A stretch of 56,902 bases of DNA from Candidatus Poribacteria bacterium. Its GTDB lineage: Bacteria; Poribacteria; WGA-4E; WGA-3G. The position numbers and the translations under genes are program-made. Every line of letters begins with the position of its first letter. Position 1 is the first letter of the stretch. This document shows, one piece after another, positions 15,186 to 34,997 of this stretch. The notes beneath the pieces are model-generated. The model was given only the letters and a program-made list of their open reading frames with translations. It was not told the origin of the DNA and ran no database searches. The stretch covers positions 1-56,902 of the forward strand of contig JAGWBU010000008.1 of NCBI GenBank assembly GCA_021295735.1. Reading direction: 5' to 3'.

Positions 15186-18100
15186 TTATAATGTAACTGC
15201 AGATCTGCCAGTCGTAATATTGTCTGGTTCTTGAATATTGGTGATTTCAGTATAGGCACTCTTCCCCTCTCCATAATAGGATTCAAAAACATGTTGATAT
15301 ACTGCCTTCCATTTTTTCTCAAACATGTCTTGCGTATAGGTTTCTGGCAGTCCTTGATCAAGAATTGTTTGAACAGCCATTTCAGTTTGGGCACACAATT
15401 GTTGCTGTTTACGCCAATCTAAAACCAAATTCTCTTGTTTGAGAGTTTCAAGTAATCCCTTCACAGCAGTTTTCACTTCTTCTCGCTGCGGCACAGTCAA
15501 GCGGGGTTCAGCTTTAGTTAGAAGATCAAATACCGCTAATTCCTCCTCCGAGAGTTCTTCTGATTCAGCACGTTCTTCCTCTTGATTAAGTTCATTCAGA
15601 AAATCAAAAATTTCCTCAAGATGTTGGTCTTCGCTAATATGACCTTCGTTATACTCCGCAATCATCTGTTCAAATTTCTCTTGAAGATCCATGCGACTTT
15701 TGTTGAGTTGAATCATCTCTGATAGTTTTCTATTTATCGCTCCCTTGAGTTTTTCAGCTTGAGTGCGTTTGTGTTCAGTGTTGAATTGTTCAGCCAGTTG
15801 TTCGAAGTCAATTTGGCTTAAGTCAATTTGTTCTGAGCCATAGGCATTTTGACCAGCACTGATGATGTAACCTTCAGGGGCGATTGAGCGGTCCAGTAAT
15901 TCTTCTACTGCATTTTCGACTTCGGAGATGTCAACGGGTTCACGGAGATTCTTTATTTTCCGAGCGATAATGTTTAGCAATGAACATATCCCGATGAACT
16001 CATTCGCTGCAGTGTCAGGGAGAATTGCTTTGAATAATTTATAGATTTTGTTTGCTTGTTCGAGGTAGTCATTTTTGGTTTGATCGTTGACCAGAATAAG
16101 ATTTACTGCTTCGTCAATTAATTGGATTTGCTGCAGGCTATCAGTCACCTGGATTCTGGAAAAGTCAATTCCAAGGTTACTACAAAAATCAGAAATTTCT
16201 GTAATTGCTTCTCTGAGTTCCTCAATAAGTTCTGACTTATCCGCAATTGGATTACTTCCGTTCCCGTTAGATCCTGTAGCATAAATAGCAAGTGCTTTTT
16301 CAAGGTTACGAAAAACGCCTATGTAGTCAACGATTAACCCGTTGACTTTATCTTTAAACACACGATTAGCTCTTGCAATTGTCTGCATTAAGGTATGGTT
16401 GCGTTGCGGTTTGTCAAGATAAATTGTTGAACATGAAGGGACATCAAAACCTGTGGTCCACATTGCACAGAGGAAAACAATACGGAAAGGATCATCTGGG
16501 TTTTTGAATTTGGTGTCCAAATCCTCACTTTGCATGCGTTGTCGGTGTGGGCTGATGTCAACGCCTCTCCTTCTCAGATCGTCAATTTCGTTTTGTGATT
16601 GTGACACCACCACGGCCATATCGGTTTCTTCCATAAACTGAATTAACGCCTCAAGTGGTTCCTCTCTGTCTCTTGCAACACCACTGTTTAATTCTGATCT
16701 CAGAGTTTCAAGTTTATGTCTCCAGTACTTCTGTGCTTTACCGTACACCTTAACTGCTGTGGGTTTATCAATAGAGATGACCATCGCCTTCCCCCGATAG
16801 CCCCTGCCGATAAAATGTGAAACGATGTCTTCTGCAACTTTTTCTAAACGTTCATCCCGCGTGATGAGATGATATTCGCGTGCAAACTCACGTTCCAGTC
16901 TTGCTTCTTGTGCCTCATCCAATTCCGCCTGCTCAAGAATCTGTTCAAGGTCGGTATTTAAATCCTCATTTGTCAATTGCAATCTGGGAACGCGATTTTC
17001 ATAGTAGAGCGGGACGGTTGCTTTATCCTCTACGGATTGCTTAAAATTGTATACTGACACTTCGTCTCCAAACACTTCACGTGTCTTTTCTTCGCCTACC
17101 ATTAGAGGCGTACCTGTAAACGCAATATATGCAGCATTCGGGAGCGCGGTACGCATGTTTAACGCCAATGTGTCGTATTGACTACGGTGCGCTTCATCGG
17201 TAATCACAATAATGTCTGCACGATCAGAGAGGACTGGATGTGGTTCATTATCTGCTGTCTGAAATTTATGGATAAGCGTGAAAACATAACGGTGATCTTC
17301 ACTGAGCAGTTGACGGAGGTCTTTGATGTTTTCTGCATGCACCTCCTGCTGTGTTAAGACACCGCTGGCACTCGCGAAGGTTTTGTAAATTTGGTTGTCC
17401 AATTCTTTACGGTCTGTTACGACAACGAATGTCCAGTGTCCCCGCATTTTTCTGAGGACTTTCTGTGCAAAGAAGATCATTGAGATACTTTTACCACTTC
17501 CTTGTGTATGCCAGAATACACCAAGTTTTCCAAGATTGGATTTGTTTTCCTGCAATGCCTTAATTGCGTTGTTTACGCCCAAGTATTGATGATTTTTTGA
17601 GATCAGTTTAATTGTCCCGCCTTGGATCTCCATAAACAGCGTGAAATTTTCAACGATATCTAATAATCGTTTTGGTTCACAGACACCTCGTAGAAGTGTT
17701 TCCAGTGAGACTCTCTGCTGTTCATCTTCACTTTCAATCCGTTTCCATTCGGTGAAGTGTTCCCATTCGGCAGTAAAACTCCCGACGCGGCTCTTTGAAC
17801 CGTTGGATACAATAATTAAGGCGTTGTACCAAAAAAGGTGGGGGATGGTGTCTTTGTAGTCTCGGAGGTTGTCAATGTAGGCTGCGTATAGATTTTCGCC
17901 AATCCCCTTGAACTCCATTAAGAGTAAGGGGATCCCGTTGACGAATCCTATCAGGTCTGGACGTCTGGTATACATTTCGCCAGTGATCCAGAATTGTGAC
18001 GCTGCGAAGAAGTCGTTATTTTCTGGATTCTCCCAGTCAATGACTTTAATTACTGAAACGGTTTCTTCTTGTGTGTTCGGGTCGGGGTCAGTTATTTTAA

Positions 18101-18404
18101 CACCGTCTTTCAGGAGATTGTAGATTTCCCGATTCGCTTCAACAGGGGTCATTACTTTGCGAGATTGCGTTAATTCTTCAATAGCGGAATCAATAACATC
18201 TTCAGGTGCATCATGGTTGAGCCGTACTAACGCCGCGCGGAGCCGATCAGTTAGCACAACTTCAGATTTTGCTGCTCTGCCAGTCCGAATTTTGCTGTCG
18301 TTCTCAAATTCGTTACCACAGTCCTGCGTTTGCCATCCTATTTCTTTGAGCAGTTCAATTGCGGGTTGTTCTACGAGTTGGTTTTCACTGTAGGGGTTTC
18401 GCAT
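15186..18404 (-). CDS. hsdR: type I restriction enzyme, restriction/translocase subunit R
   Basis: The protein is 1072 residues from ATG 18404 (MRNPYSENQLVEQPAIELL). The N-terminal nuclease domain has the PD...ExK pattern (RPDLIGFVN then LLLMEFKG, about 150-170). The SF2 motor follows with Walker A HTQGSGKS (about 300), DEAHRSQYD (about 404), SAT-like FTGTPLM, and a helicase C domain with TGFDVPSC and QTIARANR. The C-terminal third is charged and helical, as needed to bind the MTase core. An open frame extends to 18668 but overlaps the PIN gene and covers a RelE remnant in another frame, so it is rejected. The family cleaves unmodified DNA after ATP-driven translocation. No frameshift is seen. 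Confidence 0.92.
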   Translation of the reverse strand: MRNPYSENQLVEQPAIELLKEIGWQTQDCGNEFENDSKIRTGRAAKSEVVLTDRLRAALVRLNHDAPEDVIDSAIEELTQSRKVMTPVEANREIYNLLKDGVKITDPDPNTQEETVSVIKVIDWENPENNDFFAASQFWITGEMYTRRPDLIGFVNGIPLLLMEFKGIGENLYAAYIDNLRDYKDTIPHLFWYNALIIVSNGSKSRVGSFTAEWEHFTEWKRIESEDEQQRVSLETLLRGVCEPKRLLDIVENFTLFMEIQGGTIKLISKNHQYLGVNNAIKALQENKSNLGKLGVFWHTQGSGKSISMIFFAQKVLRKMRGHWTFVVVTDRKELDNQIYKTFASASGVLTQQEVHAENIKDLRQLLSEDHRYVFTLIHKFQTADNEPHPVLSDRADIIVITDEAHRSQYDTLALNMRTALPNAAYIAFTGTPLMVGEEKTREVFGDEVSVYNFKQSVEDKATVPLYYENRVPRLQLTNEDLNTDLEQILEQAELDEAQEARLEREFAREYHLITRDERLEKVAEDIVSHFIGRGYRGKAMVISIDKPTAVKVYGKAQKYWRHKLETLRSELNSGVARDREEPLEALIQFMEETDMAVVVSQSQNEIDDLRRRGVDISPHRQRMQSEDLDTKFKNPDDPFRIVFLCAMWTTGFDVPSCSTIYLDKPQRNHTLMQTIARANRVFKDKVNGLIVDYIGVFRNLEKALAIYATGSNGNGSNPIADKSELIEELREAITEISDFCSNLGIDFSRIQVTDSLQQIQLIDEAVNLILVNDQTKNDYLEQANKIYKLFKAILPDTAANEFIGICSLLNIIARKIKNLREPVDISEVENAVEELLDRSIAPEGYIISAGQNAYGSEQIDLSQIDFEQLAEQFNTEHKRTQAEKLKGAINRKLSEMIQLNKSRMDLQEKFEQMIAEYNEGHISEDQHLEEIFDFLNELNQEEERAESEELSEEELAVFDLLTKAEPRLTVPQREEVKTAVKGLLETLKQENLVLDWRKQQQLCAQTEMAVQTILDQGLPETYTQDMFEKKWKAVYQHVFESYYGEGKSAYTEITNIQEPDNITTGRSAVTL

Positions 18405-18421
18405 GATGAATAGTCTTATAT

Positions 18422-18541
18422 CTAACGATAGGCATCTCGACGGTGTTTGATTCGGTAAATGTTGACACGCCGATGTTGGTCGTCTATTTGATATAGAATT
18501 CGGTATATCCCAACGCGTATTCGCCAATCGGTTATATTGAT
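18422..18541 (-). pseudogene. RelE/ParE toxin C-terminal remnant
   Basis: Directly after the stop of the PIN gene and in the same frame, 39 codons read a RelE-type C-terminus: TDWRIRVGIYRILYQIDD, then RRVNIYRIKHRRDAYR and TAG (18422-18424). The central RVGxYRxLY and the terminal HRRDxYR are hallmarks of this toxin fold. There is no start codon and the N-terminal half is missing, so it is a fragment. It ends 17 nt before hsdR. Confidence 0.7.
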
Positions 18542-18544
18542 ATG

Positions 18545-18952
18545 TTATCGTGAAAACTGAGCGTAGAAATCTGCAGCTGTTACGATCTGTATATTCTGAT
18601 AGTTTCCAAGTTTTAACAAATGCGAATCGCCAGTCACAATGTGGGTTGCCGAACCTACAACCGCGCATTCAATAACTTTGTCATCGTCCGGATCCGCATC
18701 AACAATCTTGAGGGTGTTGTTAATCGTAACCAGCCGCAGAAAACTGCTGAGGTATTCAATCCTTTTTCTTGTTTGGGTTGACGAGAAATTGAGCTTGGTA
18801 GAGAGCTTTTCTGCTAATTCATCTAAAATTTCTATGCAGGTTATGCCTTTAATGCTGCCATGTCGTGCTAATTCAAGACAATGAAAAGGAGTTCCTTTCC
18901 AACCAGTAGCGGAAAATAGAATATTTGTATCATAAACAACTACCGGCTGCAT
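18545..18952 (-). CDS. PIN-domain toxin (TIGR00305-like)
   Basis: The 135-residue protein has PIN acidic residues at VVVYDTNILFSA (Asp about 8), EILDELAEKL (Glu about 43), DPDDDKVIECA (about 89-99) and TGDSHLLKLG (about 111-120). This pattern matches the putative toxin-antitoxin toxin family TIGR00305. The start overlaps the upstream antitoxin gene by 13 nt. It is expected to be an RNase held inactive by the upstream protein. It is embedded in the type I R-M locus just before hsdR. Confidence 0.85.
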   Translation of the reverse strand: MQPVVVYDTNILFSATGWKGTPFHCLELARHGSIKGITCIEILDELAEKLSTKLNFSSTQTRKRIEYLSSFLRLVTINNTLKIVDADPDDDKVIECAVVGSATHIVTGDSHLLKLGNYQNIQIVTAADFYAQFSR

Positions 18953-20514: not shown

Positions 20515-21966
20515 TCATCTGCTAATAGACGCACGTGTTACCTTTTGATATTCGTGACACGCCTCAATGTCTTCCTGTGTGATGCGGGGATAATTCTCAA
20601 TAATTTCTTCCTCTTTCCACCCCTGTTTTAGAAGGCCAAGTATAAACGTTACAGATAAACGTGTGCCTTTGATAACCGGTTTTCCATCAAGGATCTTTTT
20701 ATCGGAGTGCAAGCGTTCTGTTAACGCATACGGGATGTGCGTTCCGCCTTTATTTGGTTGGACATCATCAGTATCAATATCAAGGTCGGATACGTCTATT
20801 TCGCCAGAGATGAGTTTAGGGAGGAGGAGGTCGCGGGTTTGTCGGAGGTTGGCGTTTTTTATAGTTAGCGTAGCTAATTCCGATGAGATTGGTCCAACAG
20901 TTTTCTCAAACTTTGCAACAATTGCGCTTGTGGGTTTCAGGAGTTGAATACCTAAAAGATCTGCCTTCGTGATTGCATTGAAAATTGTTCCGCTGCCCAT
21001 TGTATCTTCCTCTTGAAATCTGTCTTTCAATTGGTGAAGTATAAAATGTTGATTATTACTTTTGCTTCGTATTGCAGAAAGCCCACGACCAATTACGATC
21101 CTTTTGTTTGCAATGTTGATTCGTCCAACAGGAGCACGAACACTAAATAATATATCATCTGTCTCGGCAATGCGCTTTTGAACAGTGCAATAGACTCTAT
21201 CTGTTGGAAATCGTGATCCAAAGTCTGTAACTCCTTGATGAAACGGTAATCCTTCGCCTGTCTCATTGTAAAACTCTGATTTTGGTGATAGACCCATTAA
21301 AATATTACACATCTCACCAAGCTGCTTAACCTCCCAACCCTGCGGTATCGGTCTCAACTCTGATTGGACCATCGGGACGTTCTCATGTCCCGGAAATCGG
21401 TAGTGGACGAACCATTCTCGGTAGAGGGTTTGTGCCATGTCTTCAAGGATTTTGATGCGGCGGGTGTTGTTTTCTATGAGGTCGTCGTAGGTGCTGAGGA
21501 TAGCGGCGATTTTACGCTGGGTTGGGAGGGGAAGAAATGGAATGGAAATATCTTCAACCGATGACAAAGCAGCACGTTGACGGCCTGAAGCACCGCTCAT
21601 GCTCTTCACAGCAGGGTCTCGAATTATTGGACTGAGAGCCAAATATAAAATATAAGTTGAGTCTGATATATTGGGTTTACCACGAAAAATGAAAAACTCA
21701 GTTGATCCAAAACAGGGTTGATTACCCGTGTGTTTGAATTGAACGATCTTTCCGTTTTCTAAACAAGGCGTAATGCGAGCAAACAGGATGTCACCAGATT
21801 GAAATCGAGAACCGCCTCCTTTGTAAACGCGTTCTTCTTGAGGAAAAACAAACGCGTTACCTGGATTGATGTCAGCCATTTCAATGTATGGATGCTCTTT
21901 TCCCTTTTCTAATTGGACACGTGGATTAACTTCAACAAAATCACCAAAACGAATTGTGTTATTCAT
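20515..21966 (-). CDS. hsdS: type I restriction enzyme specificity subunit fused to a DUF433 domain
   Basis: The 483-residue protein has two target-recognition domains (about 1-165 and 205-350), each followed by a conserved helix: LPLPTQRKIAAILSTYDDLI (about 146-165), and the C-terminal RDLLLPKLISGEIDVSDLD (about 380-398). Residues about 405-483 are not part of HsdS. They match the DUF433 antitoxin-like domain, with ILDGKPVIKGTRLSVTFILG, GWKEEEIIENYPRITQEDIE and a final helix. The fusion is in frame, without an internal ATG. HsdS sets the DNA target of the R-M complex. DUF433 proteins normally neutralise DUF5615/PIN-like toxins; none of that family lies next to it. Confidence 0.88.
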   Translation of the reverse strand: MNNTIRFGDFVEVNPRVQLEKGKEHPYIEMADINPGNAFVFPQEERVYKGGGSRFQSGDILFARITPCLENGKIVQFKHTGNQPCFGSTEFFIFRGKPNISDSTYILYLALSPIIRDPAVKSMSGASGRQRAALSSVEDISIPFLPLPTQRKIAAILSTYDDLIENNTRRIKILEDMAQTLYREWFVHYRFPGHENVPMVQSELRPIPQGWEVKQLGEMCNILMGLSPKSEFYNETGEGLPFHQGVTDFGSRFPTDRVYCTVQKRIAETDDILFSVRAPVGRINIANKRIVIGRGLSAIRSKSNNQHFILHQLKDRFQEEDTMGSGTIFNAITKADLLGIQLLKPTSAIVAKFEKTVGPISSELATLTIKNANLRQTRDLLLPKLISGEIDVSDLDIDTDDVQPNKGGTHIPYALTERLHSDKKILDGKPVIKGTRLSVTFILGLLKQGWKEEEIIENYPRITQEDIEACHEYQKVTRASISR

Positions 21967-22392: not shown

Positions 22393-23958
22393 TTATACCG
22401 TATTCTCTAAAATCTTCGCAACATTCTCTGCGATGCGTTCTTCCATCTGGTGTGCCTCTGCGTTTAGAATTTCTAATTCCTCGTTCAGTTCTCCGAACCG
22501 TTGCGAAAAGTCAAAATCCTCAGTTTCTTGTGTTGCTACACCGACATACCGTCCGGGGTTTAAGCTCCATCCTTGTGCTTCAATTTCTTCTACTGTAGCA
22601 ACCTTACACAGACCGGGGACATCAACGTATTTCTCATCGGGGAATTTGTTTTTGAGGTATTCCTCGCTATCGTGTCTATTTTCAGGGGTTTCGTATCGGT
22701 AAAGGCGCGCTATGTTTGCCAAGAATTCCAGTTGCATAGGTGTGAATTCACGATGTGCCCGACTGACTTGATGATAAAGATGGCGCGCATCAATGAATAG
22801 GACTGTATTGTGTCTGTCGGTGTCCTGTTTGGATTTGTCAAAGAACCAGAGGGTACACGGCAGCGTTACAGTGTAGAAGAAATTTGAGGCAATGCTTATC
22901 ATCACATCAACAACACGAGATTCAATAATCTGTTTGCGTATTTCTAATTCCGAAGCGCGCGCGTCTGCAGCGGAGTTTGCCATTACAAAACCCGCTTTAC
23001 CTGTATCATTTAATGAGCTTAGAAACAACTGTATCCAAATATAATTAGCATTATCTACGCGCGGCATGCCGAAGGGAAATCGTGGATCATCTTTTATCCG
23101 TTCCATGTCTACTCTGTCCACATTAAAAGGTGGATTCGCCATCACAAAATCAAATTTACCTAAGGACTTATGCGGATCTTCATAATAACTATTGGCTTGC
23201 CTGATGTCCCCTTCATGTCCATGCACGGCAAGGTTCATCTTGCAGAGTCTGATAGTCTCATTCACCCGTTCAACACCATGAATGCTAATATGTCCCTGAT
23301 TACCGTTTTGTGTGTGATTCCGAATGAACTCCTCACTTTGAACGAACATGCCACCGGATCCACACGCGGGGTCAAGGATACGTCCGTGAAATGGTTGGAG
23401 TATTTCAACGATCAGTTTTACAAGTGATGTCGGCGTGAAGAACTCACCGCCTTTTTGCCCCTCACTCATAGCAAAATTACCGAGAAAGTATTCGTAGACT
23501 TTACCGAAGGCATCGCCTTCAATGTCCATCGAAATTTGTTCCATGATGCGTAGGAGTTCTATGAGGGTACTCTTTTCAAGGCGATTGTAGTTTTTGGGCA
23601 AAACGCCTTCGACCTGTTTGTTCTCATCTTCAATAGCTTTCATCGCATTGGAGATAGCTTGTCCAATGTTGTCACTTTCCGGTAAATTCAGCAAATGGTC
23701 GAAACGTGCAGTTTCTGGTAAATAAAAAGCACCTCTTGCTTGGAATTGTGTTCTTTCATCAATTCGTATCCGCGTTCCAGATGATGTTTCAAAGTTAAGT
23801 TCTTTTTGTACTTGTTTGAATTTATAGTCGGCGTATTTTAAAAAGATAAGTCCTAAGACTGGCGTAGAGTATTCAGAACCTTTGAGACTTGAATTGGCTC
23901 TTAATTCATCCGCAGCACTCCATAGTTTGTTTTCGATTTGAGTCAAGTTAGTATTCAT
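22393..23958 (-). CDS. hsdM: type I restriction enzyme, methyltransferase subunit M
   Basis: The 521-residue protein has an N-terminal HsdM_N helical domain (about 8-135) and an N6-adenine MTase domain with the SAM motif [10 protein letters not shown] (about 197) and the catalytic NPPF motif (ANPPFN, about 277). Length is normal. It methylates adenine within the site set by HsdS and, with HsdR, makes the restriction complex. It starts only 33 nt after lptD, with AAAGGA 12 nt before the ATG, so the R-M locus abuts the envelope operon directly. Confidence 0.93.
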
Positions 23959-23991: not shown

Positions 23992-26900
23992 TTAGAAGAA
24001 TGAACGACCAAGCGAATTTCCGCTACCAAATGCATTATATGGCACACCAGCAGGTAAGGTATGGAGTCCCCATGTGTCGGTAGTCGCGTCGTAACCGACG
24101 CCCATTGAAACTGCTGGTTCACCTATCAAGTTAACCTGAAATGTGAAATCTTGTCGGACGTTATCAAACGGAGGATCGCGTTTAATACCGACCCGACTCC
24201 ATGAAATTCGCAAGTTCCAATCGTGTAAATTGCGGTTAATACTAACCCGTTGTGAGTAAAATTGCCCTTCAATCGGATAATAGATGAGGCTAAAGTCAAA
24301 CTCAAGGTCTTTATTGAAACGATATCTACCATTAGCAGTAATTGAACGGGATGCACGTATAGAGGTATGTCGTTTACTGAAAGAATTTCCGACACTTACA
24401 TACCATTGTTGTCGTGTGTATCTGACATTGGTGCGTACTCCGACCATCTTGAATTGTTTACCATCATCAGGATGCGGATTTGGGTCATGCGTAAAACGAA
24501 CAGTCATATTTAGATTTCGACTTGGTAACGGAACAATCGTAAAATCACTTTCAATCGGTTCATATTTACGTCTATATAGCGATTCAAATTCTGTAAAATC
24601 AGCAGTAAGGCGGGTATCAAAGTAGAAGATGCGATGAGCAGACTGGCTGCGCCGGGTTTTAATTTCAATGTTCGTATTAAAGTTATAAGTTATTCTTTTT
24701 CGCTCATAGAAATAGGTGCTGGGACCAAATGGATAGAGATTGTTATTTTCATCAATAGGGGGTTGATAATCAAAAGTAAGCGAGGATTGCAGTTCATGAC
24801 GTAATTTTCGGACACCTGGTATGAATCTGGTATTGTAGATTCGGAAGAGCGTATTGGTAGCTTGCGCTCTCACACTGTAAACTCCACGTATAATGTTTCT
24901 ATTTTTGTCTTGGTCTTTGGCGTGCCAGATAGCGTTTGTGTTTAAACTTGCATTTAATTTCAACTCGCGTAAAGGGGTAATAAATACGTTTGCTTGCTTG
25001 CGTAGGTCAAACCCTAAGTCAAGAGTCTGAAGAAAAACGTTATTTTCTTCACCGTGTTTACTTCGATAGGTTTGTCTATAGAAGTTTCCGAACTCAATAT
25101 CCATATCGAAGCTGGTATCTTCAAGTGTTGGAAAAGCGAGAAGTGAGAGGAAAGGCTTATCGGATTTTACTTTTTCGGCTACGAATACCATGCCATCGTT
25201 GATTGTTTCAAAGACTGGGAGTCTGCTAAACCGCATTCGTGAAAAGTTAAGCGTAAATTGCGGCAGTTTTTGGAGCGCAGTCGTCCCTTGACCTGAAAAA
25301 TCTTGAACGTGTCGTACTTCAAGCCTACTGGTAATATCACCGATGGTTTCTCGTGAATATGTTAGATTTCCATCTTCGTCAACGTCTTTTTCACTCGCTG
25401 CAGACAGGGCAGAGCCATACGTAATTATTCCAAAAGAATTAAGTGTGGATTCATTTTGGAGCTTTAAATCCTTTTTGTAGGTATGAGCGCGCCACTCAGT
25501 TCGTCCAACAAAACTCAGTGGGCGTCGTCCTGCCTGTCGACTATCCCAAGGTGTATAGAAGGATTGCCTGTGTCCCCACCGCATATTCCAACGTCTACCG
25601 ATTCGAGATGCGTCCTGTCTGCTAAAGGAGTATTCATCTGCACCGTAAAAATAAAAATCACCGCGATAGGTGCGTTTCTTATCAACCTTAATAAGACGAA
25701 ATGATTTTTTTGTGTTAATTACGCGGCTATATTCTCCAGCATATAGATTTTGTGCTTCTGATGCGACCTGCCGCGGATCTTCCCACCGTCCGCGATATCC
25801 GTGTTTTTTGTAGACTTCAAACTCTTCCTCTTCTTCATCCGTAGTATTTTCCTGTTCAGTGGTTTCATCTTCAACTGTTTCTACTTGAGTAGAGGTTTTA
25901 CTTCCATCATTTTCGTTTTCTATAGGTGGCGGCATACTTTCTGCATCACTGGTATCTTTAGTTTTATCGGAAGTGGTTGTTTTTCCGTCTTTGCTGGGTG
26001 TTGCTAATACCTCTGCTTCAAAAGTTTTCCATTCCGATTCAAACTGTTCGGCGAGTTCCTCAAATGTAGGTGTTTTCTCTTTTTTGACTAATTGGAAGAT
26101 GTAAAGACCTTCCGGTGAAAAAACAGGGCGGCGTTCGGTAATATCCCCAGCTTTTTCCAAACGTCGGACAGAATATCGCCACCCAGAATCCATCTCGTTA
26201 AGGGGTAGTCCATTACCTTCATTAATTTCAGACAATTTTGCCTCAGTAAATTCAGCGGCAAGTTGTTCAAATGTTTCGCCAGCGAGTGCGCGTTCGTGAA
26301 TTTTTTCAGCGGTTTCACGAACTTCATCTTGTGTTTGTGTGCTTGCAGTTATGGCAATATCAATACGGCGGAGTTTGATCTCACGTTCACCATAGATGTC
26401 AAGCACACGCTCAGCTTTGAGAACATGGAAAGCAGATTCAGTTTTTAAAACGCTGCTAATTTCACCTTCCTTAAGAGCAAACGCTGCTTCTTCCATGATC
26501 GGATCAAGTATCGGTTTCCCTTCTTCATCTGTCTCGCCTCGTGCAAGGTATCCCATATCGCCACCATCGTAACGCGTCTCTGAGTGGTTAGATTCATTTT
26601 GAGCGAGTTGTGAAAAGTCGGCATTTTCATCATTGAGTTGCTTGAGGATACTTTCGGCTTTTTCTTTTGCCCGGTTAGTATCTTCGTCATTGATTTTATA
26701 TTCCAGAAAGAGTTGTTTTAGCCAATATCTATCGTAATCCCCTTCAAGCCGATCATATATCTCTTTCGCTTTTTCTTGCAGTTTTGTACGTTGGGCAGGC
26801 GTAGCATTAGGTGGCAGTGGAATATGAATTTCGCGAAACTGCGTATCACTAAAGCGGTATTTTCCCTCAAATCCGAATCCTTGACCCCTTCGTGCGCTCC

Positions 26901-27729
26901 TGTCATATATTAACGCCCCGTCGTACCGTCTTTTACGTGCTATAGGTAAGATGATACCAATGTTAGGGCCTTGGTAGCTATCTGTGCCAACCCTGACAAT
27001 AATTTTTGCTACCTTGCCTTTACGTAAATCGCGCCGAATGGCGGGAAAATAGAAAAGAGGAACACCACCGATATGCAAAACAATGTTTTTTGCAATCATT
27101 TCTTCATTCATTCGGACAATCACTTCAGAGACGCTAAAATGGTAGTGGGGATATTTCAGGGAGCAGGTCGTTAGTGTCCCACCGCGGATATAAGATCTTT
27201 TGTCCTCTATTTTGAAAATTTCACTTCCACCGAAGTACCACGGATCGCTAAACGTATAGCCGTTTCGAGCAATTCCTTTTTTGGTTTCAAGGTTAAAAAC
27301 AAGTTCATCAGAATAAGTCTCCTCATTACCTACTTTAAGATACACGTTCCCCGAAGCACGCATTAAATTATCATTGAAATCTGCCCACACGTGGTCTGCT
27401 CGCAACACGACATCTTCATATTTGATGAGGGCATCTCCATGAATTTGAACAAAGTTATCTTGTAAAATGACTTTCTTTCCATCTCCGATGACTGTGTCTG
27501 GCGCAGGAGTCATCGTTTCAGGATTTAGGACTTCTTTTATGGAATTGGAAGTTTTATTCGCATCCTGGGTATTAGTTTCTTCCAAAACTTCCGGTGCTGA
27601 GGTCTCTGGAACTTGCGCACTGCTCCACTGTAGCGGGGAAAATAGACAAGTAAAAAGAACGATTGCCAACTGTATGACACGTAGAAATCCGTTAATGGGG
27701 TGTTTTTTCTCGATTATTGTGTGGGCCAT
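23992..27729 (-). CDS. lptD: LptD-like LPS-assembly outer-membrane protein with inserted parvulin-type domains
   Basis: The protein is about 1245 residues from ATG 27729, against about 780 in E. coli. Order: signal sequence (about 1-40), an OstA/LptA-like beta-jellyroll (about 85-165), then the start of the LptD barrel domain (GGVPLFYFPAIRRD, about 225, to GFEGKYRFSDTQ). About 380-400 residues with PPIC features follow: NADFSQLAQNESNH, GGDMGYLARGE, FALKEGEISSVLKTESAFHV, a second degenerate copy (GETFEQLAAEFTEA...GLYIFQLVKKE) and an acidic linker. The barrel resumes near residue 690 (GDFYFYGADEYSF, RWGHRQSFYTPWD). An upstream extension to 27897 runs through a palindromic repeat and a -10 site and is not used. 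It should insert lipopolysaccharide into the outer leaflet. Confidence 0.8.
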   Translation of the reverse strand: MAHTIIEKKHPINGFLRVIQLAIVLFTCLFSPLQWSSAQVPETSAPEVLEETNTQDANKTSNSIKEVLNPETMTPAPDTVIGDGKKVILQDNFVQIHGDALIKYEDVVLRADHVWADFNDNLMRASGNVYLKVGNEETYSDELVFNLETKKGIARNGYTFSDPWYFGGSEIFKIEDKRSYIRGGTLTTCSLKYPHYHFSVSEVIVRMNEEMIAKNIVLHIGGVPLFYFPAIRRDLRKGKVAKIIVRVGTDSYQGPNIGIILPIARKRRYDGALIYDRSARRGQGFGFEGKYRFSDTQFREIHIPLPPNATPAQRTKLQEKAKEIYDRLEGDYDRYWLKQLFLEYKINDEDTNRAKEKAESILKQLNDENADFSQLAQNESNHSETRYDGGDMGYLARGETDEEGKPILDPIMEEAAFALKEGEISSVLKTESAFHVLKAERVLDIYGEREIKLRRIDIAITASTQTQDEVRETAEKIHERALAGETFEQLAAEFTEAKLSEINEGNGLPLNEMDSGWRYSVRRLEKAGDITERRPVFSPEGLYIFQLVKKEKTPTFEELAEQFESEWKTFEAEVLATPSKDGKTTTSDKTKDTSDAESMPPPIENENDGSKTSTQVETVEDETTEQENTTDEEEEEFEVYKKHGYRGRWEDPRQVASEAQNLYAGEYSRVINTKKSFRLIKVDKKRTYRGDFYFYGADEYSFSRQDASRIGRRWNMRWGHRQSFYTPWDSRQAGRRPLSFVGRTEWRAHTYKKDLKLQNESTLNSFGIITYGSALSAASEKDVDEDGNLTYSRETIGDITSRLEVRHVQDFSGQGTTALQKLPQFTLNFSRMRFSRLPVFETINDGMVFVAEKVKSDKPFLSLLAFPTLEDTSFDMDIEFGNFYRQTYRSKHGEENNVFLQTLDLGFDLRKQANVFITPLRELKLNASLNTNAIWHAKDQDKNRNIIRGVYSVRAQATNTLFRIYNTRFIPGVRKLRHELQSSLTFDYQPPIDENNNLYPFGPSTYFYERKRITYNFNTNIEIKTRRSQSAHRIFYFDTRLTADFTEFESLYRRKYEPIESDFTIVPLPSRNLNMTVRFTHDPNPHPDDGKQFKMVGVRTNVRYTRQQWYVSVGNSFSKRHTSIRASRSITANGRYRFNKDLEFDFSLIYYPIEGQFYSQRVSINRNLHDWNLRISWSRVGIKRDPPFDNVRQDFTFQVNLIGEPAVSMGVGYDATTDTWGLHTLPAGVPYNAFGSGNSLGRSFF

Positions 27730-27771
27730 TGAAAGTTTCTGCAGCAACATTACTATGGGTTGAGTAATTTT

Positions 27772-27777
27772 ATTATA
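27772..27777 (-). promoter_or_regulatory. possible -10 element before lptD
   Basis: TATAAT on the minus strand, 42 nt before ATG 27729. No good -35 is present at the right distance (TAGACA is only 14 bp away), so this is weak; lptD may depend on the upstream operon promoter. Confidence 0.3.
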
Positions 27778-27806
27778 GGAAAGCTTGTAATTGTCTATAT
27801 GCTGCG

Positions 27807-27833
27807 GTAGGCGCGGTTTCAAACCGCGCCTAC
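27807..27833. repeat. perfect palindrome with 13-bp arms
   Basis: GTAGGCGCGGTTT / AAACCGCGCCTAC around a single C, between the SurA-like gene and lptD. No T-run follows on either strand, so it is not a simple terminator. It is similar in design to the palindrome at 37217-37237 and probably belongs to a dispersed genomic repeat family. Confidence 0.8.
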
Positions 27834-27923
27834 GAGAAGGTGTCCACATATTTTTGGATTTGGCTATGATAGGTAAAATATCTTCGTTCTTCTTCACAAG
27901 TCTTTGTTCAAACGAATCACATG

Positions 27924-29255
27924 TTATTTGTCTTTAGCATCAGGTGTTGGCACCGCGTCCTGTTTGATTTTGATATAGGCGTTTTCAAGGAGCGAGTCCG
28001 TATAAGCAGCATATTCTTTTTCAAAAAGTTGCTGACGTAGAATACCGATAATTTGCTGCTTCTCTTGCTGAGTCAACTCAGGCGTTTTGCGATCATCAAC
28101 TTTGTAAATATAAAGACCAACTTCGGTTTCAAGCGGCTTGCTATATTTTCCAACCTCAAGAGATTGGACGGCTTCCCGAATTTTTGGATTTAACTCAGTT
28201 AGGGTATGAACCCCAAAGTCGCCACCTTTTTCGCGAGTTTCCATATCATCAGAATGTTCTTTAGCAATGGCAATGAAATTTTCCCCTGCTTCCAATTTTT
28301 GTGTAATTTCCGTCGCTCGTTCACGCGCAGCCTGTAAAGTCTCCTCGCTGAATAGGAATGGAACAGTCAAATGTCGAAACGAAATTTTCTCATCAGTTCG
28401 AGTTTCAACTATGAAAACATGGATGCCATCAGACGTTTCAGTTGCTTCGCTGACTTCCCCTGCTTTGAGTTTGGCGAGGACAGTCAAGAACGCATCGGGA
28501 AGTGAAAGTATTTCAGATGGAGTAGTCTCAACAAGAGACCCTGCTTCAGCATTTAAATTATGTTTTGAGGCGATGCGGCGCGCTATACCTTCAAATTGTG
28601 TTTTATCTGATTGTATTTCTTTAAGTGCTTGAGTCACTTCGTCAGATGCAATTTTTCGGTCAACTTCTGTTGGTTTAAAAGCAATGAATATATGTCGCAA
28701 ACTAACTCTATCAGCTTTAGTTGGAAGTTGGTCTCGGTTTTCTTCAAAAAATTTTTGAATATCACTATCGCGCACTTGGAGCCTTGGTAAGATTCTCCCC
28801 ATAACCAGTTTTTCTGTCATCAGATTCCGTTGAATTTGTTCACGAAATGCTATAACGGTGAGTCCGTCTTGGTTAAGCAGTCGTTTAAACTCATCGTCTG
28901 TTGCAATCTGGTACTTCGTTTTAAAATTTTGGATATATTCCTCAATCTCAGCATCAGGAACTTGGATTTTCAGCGTTAGGGCAGCTTCCACCAATAACTT
29001 TTGCCGAATAAGTCTGTCGAGTGTTTGAGCACGCTCCTTTTCAGCTTCTTTAAGTGCTTCAGTTTCGGTGTATCGGTGAATTTGCTGGAGTTCAAATGCA
29101 TATTGCTTAACCAAGGTGTCAAGTTGTCGTTTGGTGATAACATCATCGTTAACATAGGCGATTATTTCATCAAATATCTTCGCGATAGTAGGTGTAACGC
29201 CGCTGTAGATGAGAAGCACAATTAGCAGCACAATAACAACTGTTTTGGGTTTCAT
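27924..29255 (-). CDS. SurA-like periplasmic peptidyl-prolyl isomerase/chaperone
   Basis: The protein is 443 residues from ATG 29255. A signal peptide (MKPKTVVIVLLIVLLIYSG...IAKI) is followed by a SurA_N chaperone domain (about 30-150: IIAYVNDDVITKRQLD, LIRQKLLVEAALTLKIQVPD) and two PPIC domains (about 175-280 and 285-390; the second has RHLTVPF...GENFIAIAKEHSDD and EKGGDFGVHTLTEL). The frame extends to 29333, but GGAGG 6 nt before ATG 29255 and the signal peptide decide the start. SurA proteins escort beta-barrel proteins to the BAM complex and are known to be critical for LptD. Here the gene lies directly upstream of lptD. Confidence 0.88.
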   Translation of the reverse strand: MKPKTVVIVLLIVLLIYSGVTPTIAKIFDEIIAYVNDDVITKRQLDTLVKQYAFELQQIHRYTETEALKEAEKERAQTLDRLIRQKLLVEAALTLKIQVPDAEIEEYIQNFKTKYQIATDDEFKRLLNQDGLTVIAFREQIQRNLMTEKLVMGRILPRLQVRDSDIQKFFEENRDQLPTKADRVSLRHIFIAFKPTEVDRKIASDEVTQALKEIQSDKTQFEGIARRIASKHNLNAEAGSLVETTPSEILSLPDAFLTVLAKLKAGEVSEATETSDGIHVFIVETRTDEKISFRHLTVPFLFSEETLQAARERATEITQKLEAGENFIAIAKEHSDDMETREKGGDFGVHTLTELNPKIREAVQSLEVGKYSKPLETEVGLYIYKVDDRKTPELTQQEKQQIIGILRQQLFEKEYAAYTDSLLENAYIKIKQDAVPTPDAKDK

Positions 29256-29292
29256 AAAGTGCCTCCAATTTTGAGAGTCTATAAAAGTAAGA

Positions 29293-29317
29293 CGGGCGGT
29301 TAGTGTGGTGCCGCCCG
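29293..29317. other. intercistronic GC-rich hairpin
   Basis: CGGGCGG/CCGCCCG (7-bp stem, 11-nt loop) lies between the second parvulin gene and the SurA-like gene. No U-run follows, so it may be an mRNA-processing or stability element rather than a terminator. Confidence 0.5.
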
Positions 29318-29345
29318 TACTATCTGACATCACTTCGTTGAGAAT

Positions 29346-30320
29346 CTATTCCTCAGGTGATGTCTGTTCGGATGGATTCTCAGATTCCTCTTCAGGAGGT
29401 TTATCCTCCGGAATGCGGTCAATAAAGGTTTTTACTTCGGCACGTTCCCGGAGTTGCGAGATCCACGCATTCATCAGGGCATCCCGACGTTCTCGTTCAA
29501 CTTTTCTTATTACGTTTTTACGCACATCCTCTTCACTAAAGGGTCTCTGATGTGCATCCCTCCCATCTTCTTTACGGAACATCATATAGTATTTTTCACC
29601 TTGCACTTCAACTTCAATGACTGATGGATGGAGTGAACCAACTTCTGCACTGAAGGCAGCATCCATAAACGGTTCTGTTCCCGGCGGATAAGAGTTTTTG
29701 CTAATATAGTCAGTGTCACCAGGGGATGCAGGATTAGCACCAGGCCCCACCAATTCACCTCTATCAGACAGCTCTTGCGCGACAACTGCAATGTCTTTAC
29801 CTGCTTTGATTTCAGCAAAAACTTCATCGGCGCGTTCTTTATCCAGAAGCGTGAGGCACAATAATCGGACTTGTTCCGGACGGACGTAATCCTCTTTATG
29901 CGTATCATAATATGCCTGATAATCATCTTCTGACAAGATAAGTTTGCTGTCAACTTCGCGTTCCGTGATCCTATCAATCATTAAATCGTGAAGATAATCC
30001 TTGACCTTTTTGAGAATTTCCTGATCTTCGTTGAGTTTCCGGTCTTTGGCAAGACAAAGGATTAAACGGCTTTCAGCCATGAGGGTCATGTATTCTTCAA
30101 GCCCCTCTTTGTCTTGATATTGACGTTGTTTGTATTCAGGAAGTTCGCTGATTTCCTGCATCATTTCTTCAAGTGTGATTCGCTGTTTCCCGTCCCACTC
30201 AAATTCAGCGATGACAGTTCCATCTGCACCAATTGCTTTGTCGCCACAACTATATAAGAACGGAAGTGCGGCAAGAATAGGGAGTAATAAGATGAAGCGG
30301 ATATAAGTATATTTTTTCAT
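29346..30320 (-). CDS. parvulin-like peptidyl-prolyl isomerase lipoprotein
   Basis: The 324-residue protein has a lipoprotein signal (FLYSC, Cys about 25), a SurA_N-like helical domain (about 45-130: SELPEYKQRQYQDKEGLEEY, ESRLILCLAKDRKL) and a PPIC-like domain (about 140-260, with DKERADEVFAEIKAGKDIAV and AFSAEVGSLHPSVIEVEVQG). The C-terminus is acidic. It shares architecture with the next gene upstream (30354-31331), so the two are likely tandem paralogues. The role is inferred as a membrane-tethered periplasmic folding factor for outer-membrane proteins. Shine-Dalgarno GGAGG lies 11 nt upstream. Confidence 0.8.
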   Translation of the reverse strand: MKKYTYIRFILLLPILAALPFLYSCGDKAIGADGTVIAEFEWDGKQRITLEEMMQEISELPEYKQRQYQDKEGLEEYMTLMAESRLILCLAKDRKLNEDQEILKKVKDYLHDLMIDRITEREVDSKLILSEDDYQAYYDTHKEDYVRPEQVRLLCLTLLDKERADEVFAEIKAGKDIAVVAQELSDRGELVGPGANPASPGDTDYISKNSYPPGTEPFMDAAFSAEVGSLHPSVIEVEVQGEKYYMMFRKEDGRDAHQRPFSEEDVRKNVIRKVERERRDALMNAWISQLRERAEVKTFIDRIPEDKPPEEESENPSEQTSPEE

Positions 30321-30353: not shown

Positions 30354-31331
30354 CTACTCCTCAGACGTATCGGATTTCTCTTCCGCTGTTTCTGGCTGGA
30401 CCAGAGCAGGAATGTTCTCAGGGTAAGTTTTTAGTTTCGCTACCAGAGAGATTTCTTCAACCCATTCAAGAATGCGGGCGCGTTTCTTCTCTCGTTGAAC
30501 TTTCCGTTCAATGTCGGATTTGACTTCCTCAAATTCCTTTTGGCGTTCTGGTTGATGTTCCTCTTTACGGAAAATGAGGTAATATGTTGTATCATTGACA
30601 TCCGTTTCAAAAACGGAATCGGTCATATCTCCGATTTCCATTTCAAAAACTTCCTCAATAAATTCAGACCAACTCTGCGGTGCACTTTTGCCAAAGAAGA
30701 ATGTATTACCAGGATCCTCTTCACTTGCACTGCCAGGGCCATTCGCCAATTTCTTTTCCTCAAAAAGTTTCTTTGCCATCTCAACGATGTCTGTTCCAGC
30801 TTTAATCTGATCCAAAGTTTCATTAGCTAAGTCTTCATCATCAAGAGTAATGCAGGTGGCGCGCACTTTTGCTTCTTCAATGTATTCACTTTTGTGTTCA
30901 TCATAGAATGCCATGAGGTCATCATCAGTATAAGTCGCCTTAGCATCAACTTCCGCTTCAGTGAGCTTTTCTACCATGAGTTGATGGGTATAATCATCTA
31001 ATTTTTGGAGATGTTCGAGGAGTTTATCAAAGCCAGCATCTGTAGCTTGAAGCAGTTTGAGTCTTTCATCGATATAATCCTCTAAGTATTCTGCTTTCCC
31101 CGCTTTAGTAGCATAATTTCGCTGGCGGTAGGTTGGCAATTCAGCAATAGCTGCTTCCAATTCAGCAAGAGAAATTTGGTGAAGTTCACCACCCCACTTG
31201 TACTCTGCTATAATGATTTGGCTATTGTCAACCTGTTCTTCAGCAGATTTGTGGTTGTCGGAGCGGACAAGAGACCAAGTGAGCAGACAGGTTGCAACAA
31301 CTGCTGCCACAACAATAATAGATTTTTTCAC
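30354..31331 (-). CDS. parvulin-like peptidyl-prolyl isomerase, paralogue of the next gene
   Basis: The 325-residue protein has an N-terminal hydrophobic segment (about 4-22), with no clear lipobox. It has a SurA_N-like domain (about 40-130: AELPTYRQRNYATKAGKAEY, YIDERLKLLQATDAG) and a degenerate PPIC domain (about 145-260: EDLANETLDQIKAGTDIVEM). The acidic C-terminus (TAEEKSDTSEE) mirrors the paralogue. The parvulin active-site residues are poorly conserved, so chaperone function may outweigh isomerase activity. It lies 60 nt after mfd and 33 nt before the paralogue. Confidence 0.75.
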   Translation of the reverse strand: MKKSIIVVAAVVATCLLTWSLVRSDNHKSAEEQVDNSQIIIAEYKWGGELHQISLAELEAAIAELPTYRQRNYATKAGKAEYLEDYIDERLKLLQATDAGFDKLLEHLQKLDDYTHQLMVEKLTEAEVDAKATYTDDDLMAFYDEHKSEYIEEAKVRATCITLDDEDLANETLDQIKAGTDIVEMAKKLFEEKKLANGPGSASEEDPGNTFFFGKSAPQSWSEFIEEVFEMEIGDMTDSVFETDVNDTTYYLIFRKEEHQPERQKEFEEVKSDIERKVQREKKRARILEWVEEISLVAKLKTYPENIPALVQPETAEEKSDTSEE

Positions 31332-31391: not shown

Positions 31392-34300
31392 TCAATCAGA
31401 TACAACAAATATATTTAAAATTCGTTGCAATTCGGTTAATAACTTCTTTCCAGTTAAATTTTCTATACCAACCATCAGTTGTGCTGGTGGGCGTAATTCA
31501 AGTTGTGGGTTTTTATGAACTGCCTCAACGAACTGGGTCACATCTATTCGGGGGTTGTGTTCATCAAAGGTCACTTTAATCCGATTACCTCCCGCGACAA
31601 TGGCTGTAATACCGAGTTTTTGACAGAGTTGTTTGATACTTGAGATTTCAAGCAACATCTCAACAGGTTCTGGTATATCTCCATATCTGTCTTTAAGTTC
31701 GTTGGTGAGTTCATGTTTATCTGTATCAGTTTTTAGAGCAGAAATTTTCTTGTAGATAGAAATTTTTTGTCGACTGTCAGGAATATAGTCGTCAGGAAGA
31801 AATGCTTCAATAGGTAAATTGATACTGATTTCAATTTCTTCTTCAACTTTTTCACCTTTTAATTTTCGGACAGCCTCATCAAGCAGCTTACAGTAGAGTT
31901 CATAACCAACATTTGTGATATGTCCATGTTGTTGTGCACCGAGGATGTTCCCTGCCCCTCTTATCTCTAAATCTCTCAAAGCGATTTTAAAACCGGAGCC
32001 GAGGTCCGTAAACTCTTCTATGACACGGAGCCGTTTCTGTGCACCTTCAGTAATCGGTTTATCTTGTGGATAAAAAAGATAGCCATAAGCCTGTTCATCG
32101 GCACGTCCAACTCGACCGCGGAGTTGATATAACTGTGCTAATCCGAAAGCGTCCGCCCGATTTATCATGATGGTATTAACATTAGGAATGTCTAATCCGG
32201 ACTCAATAATCATAGTACAAACGAGGATATCATGTTTGTGGCGGACAAACTCTAACATAACACTTTCTAACTCACGTTCCGGCATTTGCCCGTGAGCAAT
32301 AGCGACACGTGCATGTGGAACGAGTTCTTGAATGGTTTTGGCAATAATAGCGATATTCTGGACACGGTTGTGGACAAAAAATACCTGTCCGTTTCTTGTT
32401 AATTCATTCGTTATTGCGTCTCGGATAACCTTAGAATTGTAAGGCAGGACATGCGTTTGAATTGGCAATCTATTGGCTGGTGGCGTGTTGATGATACTGA
32501 AATCTCTTATGCCGACAAGAGACATGTGCAAAGTACGTGGAATCGGTGTAGCCGTAAGTGTGAGAACATCTACAGTCTCTTTATACTGCTTGATTTTTTC
32601 TTTGTGTTTCACGCCGAAGCGATGTTCTTCGTCAACGATGAGTAGTCCAAGGTTGTCAAAAGAGACAGTATCGGAAAGTAAGGAATGAGTGCCGATGACG
32701 ATATCGACGGTCCCTTTTGCAAGTTTTTCTTTAACCGATTTTATCTCCTTTTGGCTGCGAAAACGGTTTAACATTTCAACATGAATAGGAAACGGTTTGA
32801 AACGTTTTTCAAAGGTGTCGTAGTGTTGCAAAGCAAGAATAGTTGTCGGGACAAGCAGTGCAACCTGTTTTTCTGCCATTACTGCTTTGAAAGCGGCGCG
32901 TAATGCTACTTCTGTCTTACCGTATCCAACATCCCCACAGATAAGCCGATCCATTGGTCTTTCAGTCTCCATGTCGGCTTTAACATCTTCAATGGCTTGA
33001 AGTTGGTCATCTGTTTCTTGGAAAGGAAAAAGTGCTTCAAATTCGCCTTCCCACGGCACTTCTGTCGGAAAACTATAACCTCTGTTAGCTTGACGAGCAG
33101 CGTATAGTTTAAGGAGTTCACCTGCCATTTCTTCAACGGCAGCTTTTGCACGTCCTTTTTTCTTTTCCCAAGATTTACCACCGAGATAGTCTATGCTCGG
33201 TTGGTATGACTCGTCTTTGTTTCCAATATACTTTTGCACCAGATCAACTTGGTAAGTTGGTACATAGAGTTTGTCCGCTTCCCTGTATCTAAGGATAAGA
33301 AAATCCTGAGATTGCCCATCAATATCCATGCGGCGAATACCTTCATAAATCCCTATACCGTGAGAAACATGAACGACGTAGTCGCCCACTTTCATATCTA
33401 CGAGACTTAGAAGTGGTGCCCCGTTTTTGTATCGTTTTGATGAGACGGCTCGCCGCTGACGATTACCAAAAATTTCATTTTCTGAAATGACAACAAGCTT
33501 GAGGAATTCACTCAAAAAGCCTTCAGAGATAAAGCCTACAGATACAGAAATTTGCTCAGGTGGTAAATCGCGCTCAATTAACATCTCTAAGACCCGTTTT
33601 GCCTGCTGTGGTGTTTCGCAGAATACGTTAACGAAATATCCTTTAGTTGTCCACCTTTTGATATAGTCAATAACCATCTGGTAGTTGCCTCTACCGAGTC
33701 CAAGCGACTGCATATCAAAATGGAGTTCCAAGGTGTCCGTGGACTGATTGGCGTCAACGGGTATCTTTTTATTTTCTTGATCGGTCGTGGGAGACGCTAA
33801 AGAGATAGAGATGTTCGGATAGTTTTCTAATTCGGATTGAAGTGTATCAGTAGGCACCAGCAAACTATCAAGTGTAGGCATTAATTTTCCTTCTGCCAAT
33901 TTTCTATCATATATTTCCTGTAGTTGCTCACGCATCTGTTCCGCTTCTCGTGTTTGCCATCGAGGCTCAACCATGAAAACAATCGTTTCATCTGGTAGAT
34001 AATCCGTCAACATCTCTGTTTGCGGGAATAGCATCGGTAAGAATGCTTCAACTCCGTCAATTTCCACTGGAGGTTCGTCAATTACATTTATGCTATCTGA
34101 TTTTACCCGTTTGAGACTGTCCTCTAACAGGTGTGTCATTTCCCGAATGGAATTGATAAAATCGGGAGAATTGGCAGTTTGCTTCATCAGTCGTTCAGTT
34201 TGTGATTTCCAATGTGGCATGGAGATGTCAGCGAGACATACTTCTGACATCGGTGTGATAACAACTGAAGGCTGCTGCTCTATTGAAACTTGCGAAGTCG

Positions 34301-34997
34301 GGTCAAACAGACGAATCTCATCAAGTTCATCCCCAAAAAAATCGAGCCTGATAGGAGCATCGGAAGTGAGCGGATATATATCTAAAATATCGCCTCTGTG
34401 TGCGAATTCTCCCTTTACTTCAACCAGTTCCACTTGTCGGTATCCGCTGCGAATAAGAAAGGCAATTAGTTCATGCAATTCTATCTCATCACCGATTTTA
34501 AAGGTTTGACACGCTGCGGCTAATGTTTTACGTAATGGAAGTTTATAAGATAATCCACGAATCGTTGTGAACACAACACTTTGTGGTGTAGCTAGTGAAG
34601 CATCAAACGCGTCTGCACTACTATTTTTTGTAATAAGACTATAAAGACACCGCATTCGATCAACACAAATATTTTTGGTTGGTGAGGCACCTTCAAATAG
34701 CGTATTCTGCCACGCCTGAAAAAGAAATAGGTCGGTATGTGGATCAGTCGGTGCAGCATTCCTATGTTCTAAATTGCAGTTTTGGAACGCGCGCACCTCT
34801 TCCAGTACCTGTTCTGCTTCGCGGTGTGAAGGAAAAACGATAAGGAAAGATTTGTTTGGGAAATCTTCTATTAGACTCGCCAAGAAATAGGAAGTTGAAG
34901 CGTTGCGTAACCCTCTGAGCCACGGAGGGTTTTCTCCATTCTTAAGGCATTCAATCAGTTTCTGATAATCTTTCGTTCTTCGTAAAAACTCTTGCAC
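31392..34997 (-). CDS. mfd: transcription-repair coupling factor
   Basis: The 1201-residue protein has UvrB-like domains 1-2 (about 1-380), the RNA-polymerase-interacting domain (about 540-600, with [16 protein letters not shown]), a RecG-like motor (Walker A GDVGYGKT about 689, DEEHRFG about 788, [12 protein letters not shown], and the [19 protein letters not shown] region with TRG motif) and the C-terminal D7 TRCF domain (about 1060-1170). Mfd removes stalled RNA polymerase and recruits UvrA. The start is GTG, supported by AAGGA 7 nt upstream. It heads the operon with three parvulin-like genes and lptD. Confidence 0.95.

Follow-up and report, generated by a model that had tools for sequence, protein, structure and literature searches.

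We analysed a 56,902-nucleotide (nt) stretch of DNA from a Candidatus Poribacteria bacterium (assembly GCA_021295735.1, contig JAGWBU010000008.1; hereafter the window), in which an uninterrupted reverse-strand frame encodes an LptD-like outer-membrane barrel protein that carries a nest of parvulin domains. The source genome comprises 5.07 Mb in 230 contigs and is 93.5% complete with 5.55% estimated contamination. An initial annotation, made from the letters of the DNA, had set the gene at 23992–27729; the frame is the same, but it continues to 27897, and 27729 is an internal ATG (Met57) that by our reading stands immediately ahead of a signal-peptide-like stretch. The same annotation had described an LptD with 380–400 residues bearing PPIC motifs in a strand turn of the barrel. 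We measured an insert of 389 amino acids (aa), which alignments place between barrel strands 4 and 5, and comparisons of the separate pieces pointed, with low sequence similarity, to LptD before and after the insert and matched PPIC (Rotamase) within it (Table 1).

One parvulin is split around two others

Pfam matched the Rotamase/PPIC family in two stretches of the window protein (5.5e-28; best stretch, residues 403–496), and across 14 compared sequences the insert measures 309–440 aa and occupies an identical site in all. The two ends of the insert are the halves of one parvulin (A), which enclose two further parvulins (B and C). Once the halves of A were joined, the Rotamase model matched over profile positions 2 to 94–97 of 97 in all four sequences tested with Pfam (L066, L067, L069 and L074), at 7.8 to 14 bits above the C-half alone. 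Scored against a 23-row profile built from SurA and PpiD-like parvulins (two rows from E. coli SurA), the joined domain exceeded all 200 shuffles of its N-half in each of the 11 sequences tested out of 14 available, among them the window protein; it scored 26.9–78.8 bits against 14.7–52.6 for the C-half alone, the window values being 37.6 and 14.7 bits. An AlphaFold model of residues 335–777, built from 29 sequences, had a mean pLDDT of 73.7, mostly 82–87 in the N-half of A and 61–86 in the C-half. At its junctions, a barrel strand (342–349) is followed by the first segment of A (352–360), and the last segment of A (732–741) by the next barrel strand (744–753). We infer that the two halves of A pack together; A, in its two halves, and B and C are all parvulins. 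The acidic linker within the C-half of A is 38% gap in four order-level and 93% gap in seven class-level sequences.

The folds closest to the insert model were all parvulin proteins. The best structural match was the PPIase 8hm3/8hm4 (8hm4, E 7.5e-10), which by sequence also has two parvulin stretches but, unlike the insert, is a separate protein outside any barrel. PpiD (PDB 8zht, E 5.5e-6) shares the parvulin chaperone fold, whereas it is an inner-membrane protein. SurA (E. coli b0053, PDB 1m5y, E 3.9e-5) likewise has tandem parvulins; in contrast to SurA, the insert lies in cis in a client-type barrel, has one parvulin split around two and is without a SurA N-domain, for which a search with SurA_N gave no match within the LptD protein.

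Table 1 Features of the lptD locus and of the encoded protein
Feature	Residues	Position in window	Strand	Length or basis
lptD-like gene with nested parvulin insert		23992..27897	-	1301 aa from GTG, uninterrupted frame
lptD-like gene, alternative start ATG at 27729			-	1245 aa
N-terminal β-taco/jellyroll domain and barrel strands 1–4	130–351	26845..27510	-	hhalign to E. coli LptD; HMMER to 7omm
Insert	352–740	25678..26844	-	389 aa
Parvulin A N-half (first strand, first helix)	352–387	26737..26844	-	joined-half score; model
Parvulin B, complete	389–499	26401..26733	-	Rotamase 403–496; profile A1 to PrsA 2jzv, E 1.4e-11
Parvulin C, divergent	503–606	26080..26391	-	second Rotamase stretch; model; tree group lptC
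Parvulin A second helix, start of C-half	609–622	26032..26073	-	joined-half Pfam match; model
Acidic low-complexity linker within C-half of A	623–693	25819..26031	-	pLDDT mostly 26–39
Parvulin A, remainder of C-half	694–741	25675..25818	-	pLDDT 61–86; last strand runs directly into barrel strand 5
Barrel strand 5 to C-terminus	742–1301	23995..25674	-	LptD_2 above cut-off; hhalign
Turn with predicted helix, site of parvulin D in G059/G060	889–925	25123..25233	-	T5 by parity
SurA-like gene (SurA_N and two PPIC stretches)		27924..29333	-	directly upstream of lptD; Pfam
Parvulin-family gene (Rotamase_2)		29346..30320	-	324 aa; Pfam
Parvulin-family gene (Rotamase_2)		30354..31331	-	325 aa; Pfam
mfd (transcription-repair coupling factor)		31392..34997	-	conserved upstream neighbour

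The single open frame occurs across the phylum

Our homologue survey covered 84 genomes of the Poribacteria phylum and a viral sequence collection, and we do not claim that the architecture is restricted to Poribacteria. A match to the LptD–parvulin protein (E 1e-20 or better) was found in 81 of the 84 genomes, in 20 of 21 genera and in all 55 genomes with completeness of 90% or more and contamination of 5% or less; the three genomes with none (G048, G064 and G067) are assemblies of 600–880 contigs. The viral collection held no match to the protein, and the 29 named related loci are all from Poribacteria. Both ends of the insert, with flanking LptD sequence, lie in a single open frame in 78 of the 81 matching genomes, a count taken from the phylum match list together with a separate inspection of G054 and G057, and in the other three (G011, G047 and G059) the gene is interrupted by contig ends. 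In G014, G027 and G052 a stop lies close to the start of the match, clear of the frames spanning both junctions. In G013 and G057 the gene is broken at a place away from the junctions. The six single-contig genomes (G010, G023, G043, G081, G082 and G083) carry frames of 1275–1441 residues.

The fragmentation and the estimated contamination of the window genome would fit an artefact of assembly or gene calling that had fused two genes into one frame. We rejected this explanation, which we consider vanishingly improbable: in the 78 genomes, six of them single-contig, both junctions share a frame; the ends of the insert together form one domain; and each junction is flanked by sequence under purifying selection. 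The LptD–parvulin architecture is real and phylum-wide, and the doubt raised in the initial annotation, that the frame might join two separate genes, is settled by the same genomes.

Identity of the barrel protein

LptD features were recovered on both sides of the insert, as the initial annotation had it. The LptD_2 family (PF19838) matched residues 925–1055 of the whole protein with 15.1 bits, under the cut-off of 22.5, but the score rose above that cut-off once the insert was removed (23.3 bits) and in a six-frame search of the genome (25.4 bits), where it was the sole LptD_2 match; just 2 of the 13 rows of alignment A2 matched LptD_2 at E 0.05. The core LptD model (PF04453), which detects only E. 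coli and Caulobacter among 14 control genomes, gave no match in the genome. Towards the N-terminus, the protein has the motif of E. coli LptD, TTC/TSC followed by a G(G/P)xPLFYxP-type stretch, and a weak match to the CT351 family (7.9e-5, NCBIfam). Weak matches to NCBIfam LptD models were obtained for L066, L067 and L074 but not for the window protein, and Pfam LptD_N reached 17.7 bits in L066 without its insert, under the cut-off of 20.4.

Profile comparisons pointed the same way. A class-level profile of 14 sequences with the insert removed gave a 619-column hhalign alignment with E. coli LptD (probability 86; E 5.2e-6 in this single comparison), and a three-sequence profile, also without the insert, had N. 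gonorrhoeae LptD (7omm) as its top HMMER match among all PDB sequences (E 0.021), which is not significant alone, the next match being unrelated (E 1.2). P318 of the window protein is invariant in all 13 rows, E. coli included, and corresponds to the strand-2 proline; the strand-1 proline was not seen in the window protein. Both prolines are given as conserved in LptD (PMC8983717). The full-length model left the barrel without a resolved fold (mean pLDDT 45.4), perhaps limited by its 29 close sequences; Foldseek with this low-confidence model returned two PPIase chains and then LptD chains at ranks 3–16, before other barrels, the best being 9ia0 (E 1.2e-4; TM-scores by query 0.09–0.14). The genome carries LpxC, LptF, LptG and an LptA-like gene and therefore probably makes lipopolysaccharide (LPS). 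The window protein thus resembles the known LptDs (E. coli b0054, PDB 4q35 and 9i9z; N. gonorrhoeae 7omm) in its OstA-like N-domain with the motif, its large barrel and its strand-2 proline, and it is the sole LptD candidate in a genome with LPS genes; it differs from them in the roughly 390 residues of parvulins nested in a strand turn. Although low, the sequence similarity is consistent and points in one direction, to this gene encoding the LptD of Poribacteria.

Position of the insert in the barrel

In E. coli LptD, extracellular loops are numbered L1–13 and periplasmic turns T1–12, and Y247–W249 lie on strand 2 (PMC4353691). E. coli P246, just before these residues, aligns with P318 of the window protein, from which the order reads strand 3, RRG loop (L2), strand 4, insert. 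The RRG-to-RRW distance in E. coli LptD, 46 residues, equals that in the window protein once residues 352–740 (our cut) are taken out. The weak 7omm profile match put the junction between strands 4 and 5 of N. gonorrhoeae LptD (our strand names), and pairwise alignment with E. coli LptD put it at 279–282, in T2, for 6 of 11 sequences, including the two top-scoring ones. These alignments make T2, a periplasmic turn, the most likely site. The initial annotation had reasoned that a module working on nascent barrels should sit in a periplasm-facing turn, and more alignments favour such a turn than not.

The placement rests on weak alignments, and several observations weigh against it. The junction fell at 295, one strand later, in 4 of the 11 pairwise alignments, the window's own among them, and at 266 in one; several of the 11 have negative scores; hhalign set the junction one strand beyond T2; and the full-length model, at its pLDDT of 45.4, does not resolve the barrel. 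Were the barrel to differ from that of E. coli by one hairpin, as the later junctions would allow, the insert would be extracellular, with surface-loop parvulins serving perhaps as a shield or a host-interaction module. We hold this to be very unlikely, given the T2 alignments, the two best-scoring included, the weak PDB profile match and the equal RRG-to-RRW spacing; parvulins of this type are, moreover, otherwise periplasmic.

Selection, ancestry and catalytic sites

Identity to six genus-level relatives was 90% for residues 130–351, 82–88% for A, 77% for B, 81% for C, 52% for the linker and 89% for the barrel. In five pairwise comparisons, dN/dS was 0.03–0.11 in the two main parts of A, 0.12–0.15 in B, 0.04–0.18 in C, 0.03–0.05 in the barrel and 0.30–0.80 in the fast-evolving linker; the 15 codons of the second helix of A gave noisy values (0.05–0.33), dS was often above 1, and it was not computable for residues 130–351 in two pairs. 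A, B and C are under purifying selection.

In a tree of 67 parvulin domain rows (107 columns; 13 of 64 inner branches open), a single branch (support 99/88) sets off A of all 14 species, another (80/89) does so for C of all 14, and a third (99/98) for B of 13 of the 14, B of G060 falling with one SurA P1 domain (93/85). Because A and C of all species and B of 13 group separately, the nest appears to be as old as the phylum. A collinear match (26% identity, query 372–615) had suggested that B and C derive from the parvulins of the adjacent SurA; the two are not grouped with these in the tree, and we rejected that origin.

Across 56 LptD sequences, the first-strand catalytic site, assigned by us from the motif like the other histidine sites, is a histidine in none of the A or B domains and in one C domain, and the terminal histidine is present in 7 (A), 47 (B) and 4 (C). 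With the first site lost from A, B and C alike, activity as a catalytic PPIase is unsupported, even if the 47 B domains retain a terminal histidine. That loss suggests that the LptD parvulins are likely to act by binding rather than by prolyl isomerisation. In the neighbouring SurA proteins (64 frames, 53 distinct, 5 without parvulins) the same sites hold a histidine in 46 and 25 cases for P1 and in 25 and 37 for P2; since these sites vary as well, the SurA parvulins are not strictly catalytic either.

The SurA gene beside lptD

The SurA-like gene noted earlier beside lptD indeed adjoins it and encodes SurA_N with two PPIC stretches. A surA gene adjoins lptD in 65 of 82 loci; of the 56 distinct frames with a visible upstream side (the window gene counted twice), 54 have it there, and in seven further distinct frames that side lies outside the visible stretch. 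The two exceptions are L066 (G050) and L077 (G054), the two genomes of family f6, and G050 encodes a full-length SurA elsewhere in its genome. All five visible surA genes of family f5 (L065, L069, L070, L071 and L072 upstream of lptD; genomes G049, G053, G055, G056 and G057) encode the SurA N-domain and no parvulins, and the LptD insert is retained; in the sixth f5 genome, G058, the contig begins at lptD. Because G059 and G060, which lie outside the class, have full SurA, loss of the SurA parvulins in f5 is the simpler reading. Separate PpiD-like genes occur in G049, G050, G053, G055 and G056. Upstream of surA, two Rotamase_2 genes are found in families f1–f4 wherever the stretch covers them; in five of five f5 genomes and in G059 the pair is fused into one frame, 648–739 and 670 residues long respectively, and a single Rotamase_2 gene stands there in G060.

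The f5 arrangement would suit a chaperone hub in trans, in which LptD anchors parvulins in the outer membrane for other outer-membrane proteins and works with the neighbouring SurA core: all five visible f5 SurA genes encode the N-domain alone, and the other SurA-like protein seen in the four f5 genomes inspected is, by our reading, PpiD-like. We think such a hub improbable, however. The other families combine full SurA with the same insert; the usually low copy number of LptD makes it a poor carrier for a general chaperone; and SurA without its parvulins reportedly works in E. coli (Behrens 2001).

A tentative role for the parvulin module

Our tentative preference is that the nested parvulins of poribacterial LptD, likely in T2, form a tethered, non-catalytic, SurA-like chaperone or clamp for assembly. 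On this reading, the barrel hairpin leads directly into A, with B and C projecting from the connection between helix 1 and helix 2 of A. BAM begins at the C-terminal β-signal; as T2 lies close to the N-terminus, a module in this turn would be by the last-folding part of the barrel and afterwards by the β1/β26 seam. Its proposed task would be to keep hold of the β-taco and the still unfolded N-terminal strands as BAM, starting at the C-terminal end, folds the barrel, and it would remain beside the seam during closure. In family f5, the LptD module would supply the parvulin part missing from the neighbouring SurA. The stronger version of this idea, in which LptD is a self-chaperoned outer-membrane protein whose own SurA-type module is split and nested, in cis, within a periplasmic turn, and in which f5 divides the machine between two genes, we regard as rather doubtful.

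Three further points count against a chaperone role. Most of the phylum keeps full SurA beside lptD, so that a cis chaperone is not obviously needed; B and C stand apart from the parvulins of SurA itself in the tree, save B of G060; and with the first catalytic-histidine site lost in A, B and C, the domains could be a mere scaffold.

We rate a permanent structural role, as part of the finished translocon, almost as likely as the chaperone role. The module might brace the β-taco and the barrel, or dock LptA or another partner, with no special part in folding, and thereby replace E. coli devices such as LptE and the interdomain disulfides. Consistent with this possible role, the barrel is free of cysteine in 54 of 56 LptD sequences, which makes E. 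coli-type disulfides from β-taco to barrel impossible in those 54, and 49 of the 56 retain a cysteine in the motif that contains E. coli C173; in Neisseria LptD, too, the disulfide cysteine pattern differs (PMC8983717). No LptE-family (PF04390) match was found in the window genome with a model that detects 3 of 14 controls. LptE is divergent, and a negative from one Pfam model is therefore weak evidence. Parvulin A, directly joined to the hairpin, is conserved at about the rate of the barrel, and the loss of the first histidine site would also suit a brace. A purely structural module is, on the other hand, harder to reconcile with the gene order, in which all three genes between mfd and lptD, surA included, are of the parvulin family, and with f5, where the LptD parvulins are kept and those of SurA are not. 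The retained C173-motif cysteine (window Cys245, 27163–27165) is an observation in its own right: it persists in the 49 sequences despite mostly cysteine-free barrels.

In E. coli, LptD is essential, folds slowly and is reduced in level on surA deletion; the literature consulted was PMC13067283, PMC11366764, PMC6592684, PMC12644819, PMC4353691 and PMC8983717. A client with built-in chaperone-type domains would offer a direct probe of what parvulins contribute to LptD, during or after folding, and f5, with its parvulin-free SurA core, a natural experiment in chaperone splitting. A barrel turn, normally of 2–5 residues (PMC13067283), could on this evidence accommodate nearly 400 residues of folded protein. 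As far as titles and abstract openings in the open-licence PMC literature show, LptD with nested parvulins is undescribed: we found there no description of an LptD with parvulin domains and no paper that treats LptD and Poribacteria together.

A second insertion and other genes of the window

Outside the class, G059 and G060 carry an extra parvulin (D) between the parts that match window residues 919 and 920. Six strands of at least 8 residues separate the insert from this site in the full-length model (pLDDT below 50 here), and D should, by this even number, face the same side as the insert, in T5 by count. D groups weakly with A (89/73). It occupies residues ~760–880 of L074:1-3795 (-) and ~235–380 of L076:1-2334 (+), and by eye its C-half precedes strand 1 and helix 1, an order resembling a circular permutation.

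Elsewhere in the window, a type I restriction specificity subunit (Methylase_S; 20515–21966, -) bears a C-terminal DUF433 domain (residues 421–473) and lies near HsdM (22393–23958) and HsdR (15186–18668), and a 676-aa protein (109–2139, +) combines an FGE-sulfatase domain with a BNR repeat domain.

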